Part shown: one piece after another, positions 60,726-64,000 of the stretch | Position numbering within the stretch: the first letter of the stretch is position 1 | Layout of the letters: every line of letters begins with the position of its first letter | From: an uncultured Verrucomicrobia subdivision 3 bacterium | GTDB taxonomy: Bacteria > Verrucomicrobiota > Verrucomicrobiia > Limisphaerales > UBA11358 | NCBI GenBank assembly: GCA_903835255.1 | Contig: CAILMI010000055.1 | Location: 1 to 64,000, forward strand | Reading direction: 5' to 3' | DNA: 64,000 bases | Made by a program: the position numbers and the translations under genes | The notes under the pieces: model-generated | Databases searched by the model: none | The model's input: the letters and a program-made list of their open reading frames with translations, nothing else | Told to the model about the DNA's origin: nothing

Positions 60726-61634
60726 CTAAATTAAAGCCACCTGACGCAGCCGGGGCTGCTCTTTCAACGCTTCCAGCATTCCCCGGAAGCCCCAGCGCGC
60801 GAACAACTCGCCCAACCGCTCCGCATCACCCGGTTTTTCCGCCAGATTTTCAGGCGAAAAATCGCACGGCAAATCGTCCTGCAACCGAACCAGCTTCACA
60901 TTCCGCTCCAGCACCGCCGCCGACGCGCGCAGGGAGGCCTGCAGCTTTTCCTGCTTCACTTCCGGCAACCGCCCCAGCAGCCCGGTCACCGAGCCGAACC
61001 GTTTGAGCAAGTCGGTGGCGGTTTTGGGCCCGACCCCGGGCACGCCCGGAATATTATCCACGCTGTCCCCCATGAGGGCCAGCCAGTCCACAATTTGCGA
61101 CGGCTCCACGCCGGTCTTGGCCCGGACCTGTTCATCCGTCCACACCATTTCGCTCTTGTCATTGGGGTTCAACAACCCCACCTGCGGCGAAACCAACTGC
61201 ATAAAATCCTTATCCGAACTGGCGATGACCACCGCCATGCCCCGGTCCGATGCCTGCTTTGCAAGGCACGCAATGTAATCGTCCGCTTCCACGCCGTCGC
61301 GCCGGAACGATTCGATGCCCGCCGCATTCAGATAACTCACAATCTCGTCCAGCTGCGGCCTCAACTCGGCCGGCATCTCCGGGCGCTGCTGCTTGTACCC
61401 CGGCAGCGCGGCCATCCGTACTTCACTCAGGCCCCCGTCCCACACCACCATTCCGTGCGTCGGCTTGAGCAACGCCCGCATCTTGCCCAGCATCTTGACG
61501 AATCCGTAAATGGCATTCGTCGGCTCTCCCGACGGCGACCGCAATTCGCGAATCGCATGGAACGCCCGATACGCATAGGCGTGTCCGTCAACAATCAGCA
61601 ATCGGTTCAAAACGTTATCCAAGCGCCCTGCCAT
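60726..61634 (-). CDS. Stand-alone 5'-3' exonuclease (DNA polymerase I N-domain/FEN type)
   Basis: A 302-residue nuclease. The family start LLIVDGHAYAYRAFHAIREL includes the first metal-binding Asp. It has PTNAIYGFVKMLGKMRALL, VEADDYIACLAKQASDRGM (acidic cluster), VIASSDKDFMQLVSPQVGLL and the helix-hairpin-helix IPGVPGVGPKTATDLLKRFG. It resembles the 5' nuclease domain of Pol I but lacks the polymerase part, like phage T5 or ExoIX-type enzymes. It would remove 5' flaps or RNA primers. Start 61634 is preferred over an extension to 61757 that would overlap the secretin ORF. Confidence 0.93.
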   Translation of the reverse strand: MAGRLDNVLNRLLIVDGHAYAYRAFHAIRELRSPSGEPTNAIYGFVKMLGKMRALLKPTHGMVVWDGGLSEVRMAALPGYKQQRPEMPAELRPQLDEIVSYLNAAGIESFRRDGVEADDYIACLAKQASDRGMAVVIASSDKDFMQLVSPQVGLLNPNDKSEMVWTDEQVRAKTGVEPSQIVDWLALMGDSVDNIPGVPGVGPKTATDLLKRFGSVTGLLGRLPEVKQEKLQASLRASAAVLERNVKLVRLQDDLPCDFSPENLAEKPGDAERLGELFARWGFRGMLEALKEQPRLRQVALI

Positions 61635-61656
61635 CCCCCCAATGACCGCATCCCCT

Positions 61657-62313
61657 TTAAGGCTTTGCCAGCGCGGCCGGCGGCCCCGGCTGAAAGGTCT
61701 GCCCTGGCACCACGGGCTGCGACGGAATGGCGGTCTGGCTGAACGGCAATTCGTCATCGGAATGCACCCGGTTTCCCGCCGGATCCACGATGGTGGCGGT
61801 CACGAAAATCATCAGATTCTTTTTGGCCACCACTTTGGAGGAGCTCTGAAACAGTCGGCCCAGCACCGGCAAGTTGCCCAGCATGGGCACCATGTCCTTG
61901 GTGCTGAGCGTGGCGGAAGAAATCAGGCCGCCGATCACAATCGTCTGGTTGTCCCAGATGTTCACGGTGGTGACGACCTGACGGACGGAAAAGATCGGCA
62001 AACTGGTGGGCAATTGGACCACATTCAATCCGCCCGTGACATCGGGGACCGGCGGGGGATCCTGATAGCCCGCAAACTCCGTCAGCGACGGGATAAGCGT
62101 CAGATTGATGGTGTAACCGTCGGACAAGACATAGGGGACGACATCCAGCACCGGACCGGTCTCCACCTGCTGGGTAATGGGCGTGATGGCCGAGACGCCG
62201 GGGTTATTGTTCACCACCTGAGCCTGCGCGCGCTGAACCCCGTCATTCGTGGCCCACAATAACAACGCCGAAAAGGTCAGTCGGAAGACCGTATTTGCCT
62301 TGAGTGCTTTCAT
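61657..62313 (-). CDS. C-terminal half of a split secretin, with its own signal peptide
   Basis: A 218-residue exported protein. MKALKANTVFRLTFSALLLWAT continues to an AQA|QV-type cleavage site at about residue 31. The mature part is the second half of the secretin (PF00263) domain: TGPVLDVVPYVLSDGYTINL, PIFSVRQVVTTVNIWDNQTI, VIGGLISS, VPMLGNLPVLGRLFQSSSKV and LMIFVTATIVDPAGNRVHSD. The N-domains and the first half of the secretin domain are absent; they are in the ORF just upstream (gap 19 bases). Both halves would have to co-assemble to make a complete barrel. The absence of a frameshift remedy is explained in the findings. Confidence 0.85.
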   Translation of the reverse strand: MKALKANTVFRLTFSALLLWATNDGVQRAQAQVVNNNPGVSAITPITQQVETGPVLDVVPYVLSDGYTINLTLIPSLTEFAGYQDPPPVPDVTGGLNVVQLPTSLPIFSVRQVVTTVNIWDNQTIVIGGLISSATLSTKDMVPMLGNLPVLGRLFQSSSKVVAKKNLMIFVTATIVDPAGNRVHSDDELPFSQTAIPSQPVVPGQTFQPGPPAALAKP

Positions 62314-62332
62314 TTTTAACTGGTAATTAAAA

Positions 62333-64000
62333 TTATTGGGTGGTGCCGGTGGTGGTGGAAGCCGTGCCCTGCTGGAAGTCATAGCCGGTGACAACGAAAA
62401 TCAGGCGGGTCGCGCGCATCTGAGTCTGGCGCCCGCTGGTGGTCACCACTTCCGGTTCCGCAAGTGTCTCGGACCCCGAGCGCTGCTCGATCGCCTTGAT
62501 CACCACCCGGAAGTTGGGATCGGTCATGATTCCCGTGACCGTCGCCAGCGCGGGGGCGCCGAGCGGATTGCGGAGGCCTCCCGTCACGAGCTGATCCCCC
62601 GAACTCCCGGCAATCTGACTCGCCGTCGTATTTCCGGGAAAGGTGCCCAGAGGATTGGCGGAGGAGACGGGCGTGTTCAGCGACGGCGCACTGCCGCCGT
62701 TGGCGACCACGTTGCCATTCACAAAATTACCCAGATACCAGTCAAAGCCCAAAGCCGAATTATCATCCTGCATGATTTCAATAAAGCGGGATTTAATGTG
62801 GACCTGTGGGGCCACGCGGTTCAGCACCTCAATGGCATTTTCAATCGTGTCGAGATCCTGGGCGGTGCCGCGGACAAACAATTCCCCGAGGCGATCGTTG
62901 AAAAAGAGACTTTTACCCAGGCCGCCCGGCGTGGACGAATCCAGGTTCACCCCCAGCGTGGAAAAGAACAGGCGGGCCTGAGTGCTGATGTCCACCGTGT
63001 CACCCACTGTCGTCACATAATTGAGCCCACCATTGCCGCTGCTGTTGCCGCCGCTGCTCCCATTACCGCCGCTGCTACCGGTGCTGCCGCGGCTGCCGCC
63101 GCTGCTGTTACCACCGCTGCCACCGCTGCCATTGTTGTTGCCGCCGGCTACATTGACGATGGGGACTGTGGCGCCATAGTTTCCGCTTCCGCCGCTGTTA
63201 CCGCCGCCGCTATTGCCACCGCCGCTGCTGCCGCCACCGCTGCCGCCTCCGCTGCTGCCGCCGCTGCTCCCGCCACTGCTGCCCCCGCCGCTGCCGCCAC
63301 TGGAATTACCCGTGGAGCCAAAGCTCTGGGAGGAAACGGCCTGCAACCCCTGCATGAAAGTATTGGGATCCACCCTGAAATGGCGACTGTAAAGGGTCGG
63401 GGTTTCCGCGCCCTTGGATGAAAAAATGATCGCATAATCGACCACGCTGTACTTGATGGGATGATCTGCCACTTGGCAAATAGCTTCGAGGACATCCGCA
63501 AGACGGATATCGGTCAGGGCCGGATTGATTTTAATGACCACCGCGTTCAGGTCCACCGATTCTGCGGCCGCGGGAGCGGCAGGAGCCGCGGGCAGCCCCG
63601 TGGTGGGATCGACGGCGGAAGCTCCGAGCAAACCGCCTCCAGCTGGGGTGGAAAGGGTGGCCACCGAATTATCAGGATTGGGATTGATGAGGAAATTAAT
63701 ACCCCGCTTATCCGGATCGCGGATTTTGGATTGTTCGCTCAAATTGCGAACCACTTCACTCAAGGGCAGCCCGTCGTAAAAGGCGTCCAGGCGGATGCGA
63801 TTGAGCTTGTTCATGATGACCTGGCGGCCAGCGCCGGTGTAGATCAAGTTGGTCGTCGCAAAGGCATTGGGGACGGGCAGCCCCGTGTTGGGACCGACAT
63901 GTTCCCAGGTCTTTTCCACCTGCACCAGGCGTTCGCTGCTGGCCGACTGATGGAGCCTCTCATCACGGGCAAACCGGGCCTGCTTGGTCAAATTCAAATA
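62333..64000 (-). CDS. N-terminal and central part of a split type II-like secretin (5' end outside window)
   Basis: 555 residues are visible and the N-terminus lies outside the window. The order is LDAFYDGLPLSEVVRNLSEQ (N0/STN-like); an N1-like segment DIRLADVLEAICQVADHPIK; a Gly/Ser-rich low-complexity stretch of about 100 residues; an N3-like ring LFVRGTAQDLDTIENAIEVL; and the first half of the secretin domain, VAPQVHIKSRFIEIMQDDNS to EPEVVTTSGRQTQMR. It ends ATRLIFVVTGYDFQQG and TTTGTTQ before TAA. The remaining secretin strands are in the next ORF. It probably forms part of an outer-membrane type II secretion or pilus channel. A TTG at 63997 is not a credible start. Confidence 0.88.
   Translation of the reverse strand, partial: YLNLTKQARFARDERLHQSASSERLVQVEKTWEHVGPNTGLPVPNAFATTNLIYTGAGRQVIMNKLNRIRLDAFYDGLPLSEVVRNLSEQSKIRDPDKRGINFLINPNPDNSVATLSTPAGGGLLGASAVDPTTGLPAAPAAPAAAESVDLNAVVIKINPALTDIRLADVLEAICQVADHPIKYSVVDYAIIFSSKGAETPTLYSRHFRVDPNTFMQGLQAVSSQSFGSTGNSSGGSGGGSSGGSSGGSSGGGSGGGSSGGGNSGGGNSGGSGNYGATVPIVNVAGGNNNGSGGSGGNSSGGSRGSTGSSGGNGSSGGNSSGNGGLNYVTTVGDTVDISTQARLFFSTLGVNLDSSTPGGLGKSLFFNDRLGELFVRGTAQDLDTIENAIEVLNRVAPQVHIKSRFIEIMQDDNSALGFDWYLGNFVNGNVVANGGSAPSLNTPVSSANPLGTFPGNTTASQIAGSSGDQLVTGGLRNPLGAPALATVTGIMTDPNFRVVIKAIEQRSGSETLAEPEVVTTSGRQTQMRATRLIFVVTGYDFQQGTASTTTGTTQ

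Follow-up and report, generated by a model that had tools for sequence, protein, structure and literature searches.

At the edge of the window, the 64 000-nucleotide stretch of DNA from an uncultured Verrucomicrobia subdivision 3 bacterium analyzed here, two adjacent genes on the reverse strand carry between them the parts of a secretin (Table 1). Gene 1 runs past the window edge: the full gene starts at an ATG at contig position 64615 and encodes 760 amino acids with a signal peptide of its own, and the TTG start in the window is an edge effect. Its product is ordered as signal peptide and TPR region (with Pfam TPR matches), periplasmic N domains, a Gly/Ser-rich linker, an N3-like domain and a partial secretin domain reaching the first strand of Gate 1, and it ends in ...RLIFVVTGYDFQQGTASTTTGTTQ (stop codon, 62333-62335). 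Between the N domains lies a long Gly/Ser-rich low-complexity stretch (window 63050-63310), whose counterparts at two related loci, L145 and L146, are Gly/Tyr- or Met/Gly-rich and of other lengths. Gene 2 starts at an ATG at 62313, 19 bases past the gene 1 stop and in the +1 frame, and stops at 61657. Its N-terminus reads MKALKANTVFRLTFSALLLWATNDGVQRAQA/QVVNNN..., and the signal peptide is followed by the second Gate 1 strand, Gate 2, the remaining barrel strands and a C-terminal tail. An initial reading of the DNA made without database searches (the sequence-only reading) had described two ORFs, the first ending at 62333 and the second beginning 19 bases later in a different frame, and this layout was recovered exactly. 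Downstream of gene 2, an ORF resembling a 5'-3' exonuclease of the DNA polymerase I type (60726-61757, reverse strand) overlaps the end of gene 2 as listed; a likely internal start at about 61637 avoids the overlap.

Table 1. Coordinates of the secretin gene pair in the window and of related genes at other loci
Feature	Position	Strand	Remarks
Gene 1, part in the window	62333..64000	-	Signal peptide, TPR repeats, N domains, start of secretin domain
Gene 2	61657..62313	-	218 aa; signal peptide and C-terminal rest of secretin domain
Break between the genes (19-base spacer and gene 2 ATG)	62311..62332	-	
Predicted Sec signal peptide of gene 2	62221..62313	-	31 aa, cleavage after AQA; read from sequence
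First Gate 1 strand, gene 1 (TRLIFVVTG)	62384..62410	-	From alignment; first residue is Thr at the hinge-glycine position
C-terminal tail of gene 1 after the VTG turn (YDFQQGTASTTTGTTQ)	62336..62383	-	Low-complexity, Thr/Gly-rich
21-residue N-terminal arm of mature gene 2 product (QVVNNNPGVSAITPITQQVET)	62158..62220	-	Leads to the second hinge glycine
Second Gate 1 hinge glycine, gene 2 (TGPVLDVVP)	62155..62157	-	Aligns with XcpD G496 and f1 pIV G297
Gene 1 with Peptidase_S74	L145:4856-7648, L146:2904-5642, L150:4558-7554	+	Three split loci

On its own, gene 2 matched the secretin profile PF00263 over positions 41-169 (E 3.7e-26). The share of gene 1 fell below the reporting level in the window protein, and gene 1 of relatives matched positions 1-38 (E 1.4e-5) and 1-41; the complete domain is present only in the two genes jointly, with the break at about position 40. 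The claim that both ORFs share one PF00263 domain stood directly for gene 2 and, for gene 1, through its relatives and the alignment of intact relatives to solved secretins, but not for the window protein of gene 1 by itself. The Amuc_1098 family profile NF042912 matched gene 1 over positions 19-383 and a second stretch and gene 2 over positions 637-804 of 805, both ends of the profile being matched in order by the locus. The scores of the two proteins (217.8 and 122.9 bits) and that of an intact orthologue (297 bits) are all below the curated cut-off of 750 bits in one protein, and by sequence the locus is filed as Amuc_1098-like, a distant relative of that kind and not a member of the equivalog.

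The operon reads PilM-like, Amuc_1100-like, Amuc_1099-like (a small membrane protein), gene 1 and gene 2. The PilM-like neighbour scored 476.9 bits against the Amuc_1101 family (cut-off 650) and 145.8 bits against TIGR01175 PilM (above the cut-off of 133), and the Amuc_1100-like neighbour scored 52.7 bits against the Amuc_1100 family, under the cut-off of 180; the Amuc_1099-like protein gave no family match and is named after its position in the operon. The locus, in its PilM/Amuc_1100-like operon, is not part of a type III secretion cluster. The source genome (70 contigs, 97% complete) contains T4P-type ATPases (8 PF00437 (T2SSE) matches) and 45 prepilin-like N termini with an N-methylation motif. 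Two other secretins were found, on contigs C20 and C33, which are weakly related to the split locus (E 4.0e-18 or weaker, compared with 4.3e-139 for the split locus itself), and the split pair is the genome's only secretin of the Amuc_1098 type.

Secretins form 12-15-mer outer-membrane channels, and their pore domains are 56-60-stranded double barrels built from single chains. In XcpD, the central gate (Gate 1) lies between hinge glycines 466 and 496 (PMC10550240), the gate hinge glycine of Vibrio GspD is G453 (PMC7545093), and the hinges of f1 pIV are at 267 and 297, with the loop 275-289 disordered (PMC8563730). When intact relatives of the window locus were aligned to solved secretins, the cut fell in the loop after GspD EVPVITG. 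The first hinge glycine aligned eight residues before the G of VTG, and the VTG glycine was accordingly rejected as the gate hinge; the second aligned with the G of VGIKLKVKP, which corresponds to the G of TGPVLDVVP in gene 2. For the XcpD numbering we assumed a signal peptide of 34 residues. The query used for numbering the hinges was a PulD sequence, taken partly from print, and the numbering stands because this query is all but identical to 6hcg. The structures 5wq9 (G453A mutant) and 5wq8 (wild type) differ at exactly the first hinge position. In the Amuc_1098-like family this position is not a glycine (Thr in the window, as against G453 in Vibrio GspD and G466 in Pseudomonas XcpD), and the second hinge glycine is invariant in both alignments (A2 and A3). 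Gene 2 also has invariant pore motifs.

In an AlphaFold model of the intact relative L036, strands 221-232 and 260-280 flank a loop (235-258) with pLDDT below 50. The confidence of this model is moderate (mean pLDDT 66, pTM 0.45), as is that of a model of gene 2 alone (mean pLDDT 62, pTM 0.33), and Foldseek matched the L036 model to 40 secretin chains at E < 0.001. From the hinge alignment, the L036 model and the Foldseek matches, the cut maps to the tip of Gate 1, a disordered loop of the central gate that runs from one hinge to the other, and the free ends would lie in the lumen. The join had been put, from the sequence alone, at a 'VTG / DV.P' point in the secretin core, a point that does align inside Gate 1 of the solved secretins.

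Relatives of the locus were present in all 49 genomes of the genus that were searched, where 46 orthologous loci were assessed, the rest being missing or more distant paralogues. The secretin is split at 32 of the 46 and intact at 14. Every split locus of the genus has the same break point, with the two genes adjacent on one strand. With gene 1 as the reference, gene 2 is in frame 0 in 11 of these loci, in frame 1 in 7 and in frame 2 in 14, and even the closest relative of the window locus has a different offset (2, against 1 at the window locus). Between the stop of gene 1 and the ATG of gene 2, relatives mostly have 14-41 bases, with a maximum of 208. Across the order (320 genomes) we found 53 split loci in seven families, a minority among intact ones; in addition to the genus, the split occurs in six further families (f11, f19, f34, f35, f37 and f51). 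The named records of the same group are metagenome assemblies labelled Limisphaerales or Verrucomicrobia subdivision 3. Of the matches listed from 388 genomes sampled across the phylum, about 155 came from outside the order and were intact save for a few short frames, one of which (222 aa) was traced to a contig end. Genes cut by contig ends likewise accounted for an apparent split outside the order (G384) and for short frames inside it (G210, G217, G244, G063, G297, G214 and G277). The two-gene arrangement is repeated across dozens of genomes and is thus far from a chance event, and because the matches listed outside the order are intact, the deeper ancestor was probably intact as well.

Several loci differed from this general pattern. 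In the assembly with L148 (genome G096), gene 1 is broken into several frames and gene 2 is intact, either through error or through real decay. The secretin at L049, L050, L051 and L083 is an intact, more distant one of the same type, about 52-56% identical to gene 2, and no PilM-, Amuc_1100- or Amuc_1099-like neighbours were detected in the fetched stretch.

In each of the 50 split loci that were measured, gene 2 carries a signal peptide, as called from hydropathy and a cleavage motif rather than by a trained predictor, which bears out the convincing signal peptide first noticed on the second ORF. The maximum 12-residue hydropathy (Kyte-Doolittle) before the second hinge averages 2.48 in split loci (n=50) compared with 0.72 in the loop of intact ones (n=46); the script used an earlier ATG than the likely one for the window locus and a few others, and the scored stretch was unchanged. 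Values of dN/dS were around 0.05-0.17 for both halves in most sufficiently diverged pairs, and the pore parts of the two genes in the window gave 0.094 and 0.083 against the nearest relative, the signal peptide evolving faster. The pairs L052/L081 and L081/L071 reached 0.4 and 0.7, weak estimates with few synonymous changes. Judging from these sequence comparisons, both halves are under purifying selection.

Past VTG, the gene 1 tails of split loci are 12-45 residues long (median 20), Gly/Thr-rich and around 1% charged. The gene 2 arm, from the predicted cleavage site to the second hinge, has 21 residues in nearly all split loci and across families, and in the same place the intact genes of the order have a Gly/Asn/Ser-rich loop of 34-49 residues, which is shorter in distant paralogues. 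As a test for a scar, we looked for the motif [VI][NQ][NQ] in the arm, which is present in 29 of the 50 split loci and in 12 of the 46 intact ones, a difference that is suggestive only. Three split loci from two families (L145, L146 and L150) have a Peptidase_S74 domain at the gate end of gene 1, past the Gly-rich tail (E 2e-13 to 4e-9); among the matches listed, these are the only ones that span both the pore strand and Peptidase_S74. This domain (endosialidase chaperone), which has an SDRNLK-type start in the three loci, is common elsewhere in these genomes; among the matches listed, it is fused to a secretin in these three loci only.

Taken together, we consider it very likely (a probability of roughly 0.87) that the locus encodes an Amuc_1098/PilQ-type, T4P-like outer-membrane secretin as two co-assembling, Sec-exported proteins. 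That gene 1 is instead decaying as a secretin, with gene 2 left as a remnant or doing another job (for example, as an assembly factor) and the pilus using another secretin, appears unlikely: the genome does hold two further secretins, and in some relatives there is another paralogue of the same type, more distantly related, but neither of the other two secretins here is of the Amuc_1098 type, dN/dS is low in the pore-domain parts of both genes, gene 2 retains the invariant pore motifs and the split operon is complete. We give somewhat less credence still to each half forming a homo-oligomer of its own, as a simplified channel or ring. Their separate signal peptides would permit independent export; gene 1, however, would then end after one Gate 1 strand and gene 2 begin with its partner, although both strands flank the same loop in the intact model and each subunit of a solved secretin contributes four inner and four outer strands (PMC10550240).

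Programmed frameshifting or stop readthrough, by which both frames would be fused into one protein, is very improbable. At the end of gene 1 in the window, the second frame has no stop over 68 bases, but frameshifting as the link is excluded by the frame offset, which can be 0, 1 or 2 and changes from the window locus to its closest relative; the stop-to-ATG spacing varies as well, and a fusion product would contain an internal signal peptide. That the locus is an ordinary secretin gene with an error of sequencing or assembly, or with a recent frameshift, agrees with the intact orthologues at 14 loci of the genus but has a negligible chance of being correct, and is rejected because the split recurs in many independent assemblies and the frames vary; purifying selection also speaks against it, as does the full signal peptide that takes the place of the Gly-rich loop of intact genes. 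Gene fission with two exported products rather than a frameshift, as the sequence-only reading had it, is thus supported by conservation, signal peptides, frame offsets and dN below dS. That reading had also held that relatives with a single ORF would count against it; some relatives are indeed intact, but because these branch among the split loci in the trees and carry a linker of their own, they point to fission and fusion and not to error.

A tree built from the three proteins encoded next to the pair in the operon requires 14 changes of the split state, and well-supported branches force 10 of these; a pore-domain tree from which the cut region was left out requires 9, of which 4 are forced. 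A single clade of split loci was rejected on both the operon-marker tree (AU p 1.2e-7) and the pore-domain tree (AU p 6.8e-6). The two trees disagree with each other. Most intact pore domains of the genus (FSF[ND]NG type) cluster in the pore tree (FastTree support 0.99), and the operons of intact genus loci are interleaved with split ones. We read this as probable swapping of the secretin 3' segment between operons, together with repeated fission or fusion. The nearly constant length of the gene 2 arm suggests that only a small number of fissions gave rise to the gene 2 start seen today, followed by re-fusion or exchange. Among individual loci, L035-L043, L045 and L046 have intact pore halves that mostly cluster while the rest of their operons do not, which suggests 3' recombination between lineages.

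In the two-chain secretin that we favour, each protein would be exported by Sec and then cleaved by signal peptidase, the gene 1 product supplying the TPR region, the N domains and the beginning of the pore domain, and the gene 2 product the remaining pore domain. The halves would join in the periplasm or the outer membrane, where the strands beside the cut would pair like those of a single-chain secretin. Each protomer's two chains would meet as antiparallel Gate 1 strands, giving a ring with two chains per protomer. The covalent break falls at the apex of the central-gate loop, a region that is disordered in known secretins, and because it would lie in this lumenal tip the barrel could form without a continuous loop. 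Such a free-ended gate might be looser or wider, or might open by parting. Conservation and structure lead us to infer the co-assembly of the two proteins. It is a more doubtful suggestion that the cut is itself functional, with two-chain hairpins that part or swing aside and so make a gate whose opening differs from that in single-chain secretins, free ends that carry modules such as Peptidase_S74, and adaptive switching between the split and fused states.

Among the closest known counterparts is Amuc_1098/PilQ of Akkermansia muciniphila (NF042912; PMC4960237), which shares the TPR N terminus and the secretin domain, in a similar operon with the PilM-like Amuc_1101, an Amuc_1100-like protein and a small membrane protein (PMC4960237). 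Amuc_1098, however, is a single polypeptide of 907 residues, whereas the window locus encodes two, cut at Gate 1. The solved secretins GspD, PilQ, XcpD and f1 pIV have the same pore domain, Gate 1 position and second hinge glycine, but all are single chains, and their first hinge glycine is lost in the window (Thr). A secretin role divided over two genes is already known from RhcC1/RhcC2 of the rhizobial and Pseudomonas syringae T3SS-2 (PMC3459982, PMC3574062, PMC4500985, PMC3973906), in which RhcC2 is a whole secretin domain of Tad origin and RhcC1 the N-terminal remnant of another secretin (PMC3459982). Unlike these, the halves in the window share one origin and are divided within the pore domain; a C-terminal gene with the whole secretin domain, as in the Rhc-type layout, was not found at this locus, where the cut is within PF00263. 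TadB/TadC, the product of a fission of the inner-membrane platform (PMC6668835), is similar in that a component of a type IV filament machine was fissioned and kept as tandem genes, but there the split is between two repeated domains of a platform, and is neither in a secretin nor within a domain. We found no earlier report of a secretin cut in its pore domain in the open-licence literature that was searched.

A cut at the gate tip that occurs in nature, is widespread and can be reversed in evolution would mean that secretins do not need a continuous gate loop. With intact and cut relatives to compare, the locus would offer a natural split-protein system for studying gate opening and barrel assembly. 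In the Verrucomicrobiota, pilus secretins may be missed or truncated by gene finders and domain counts.
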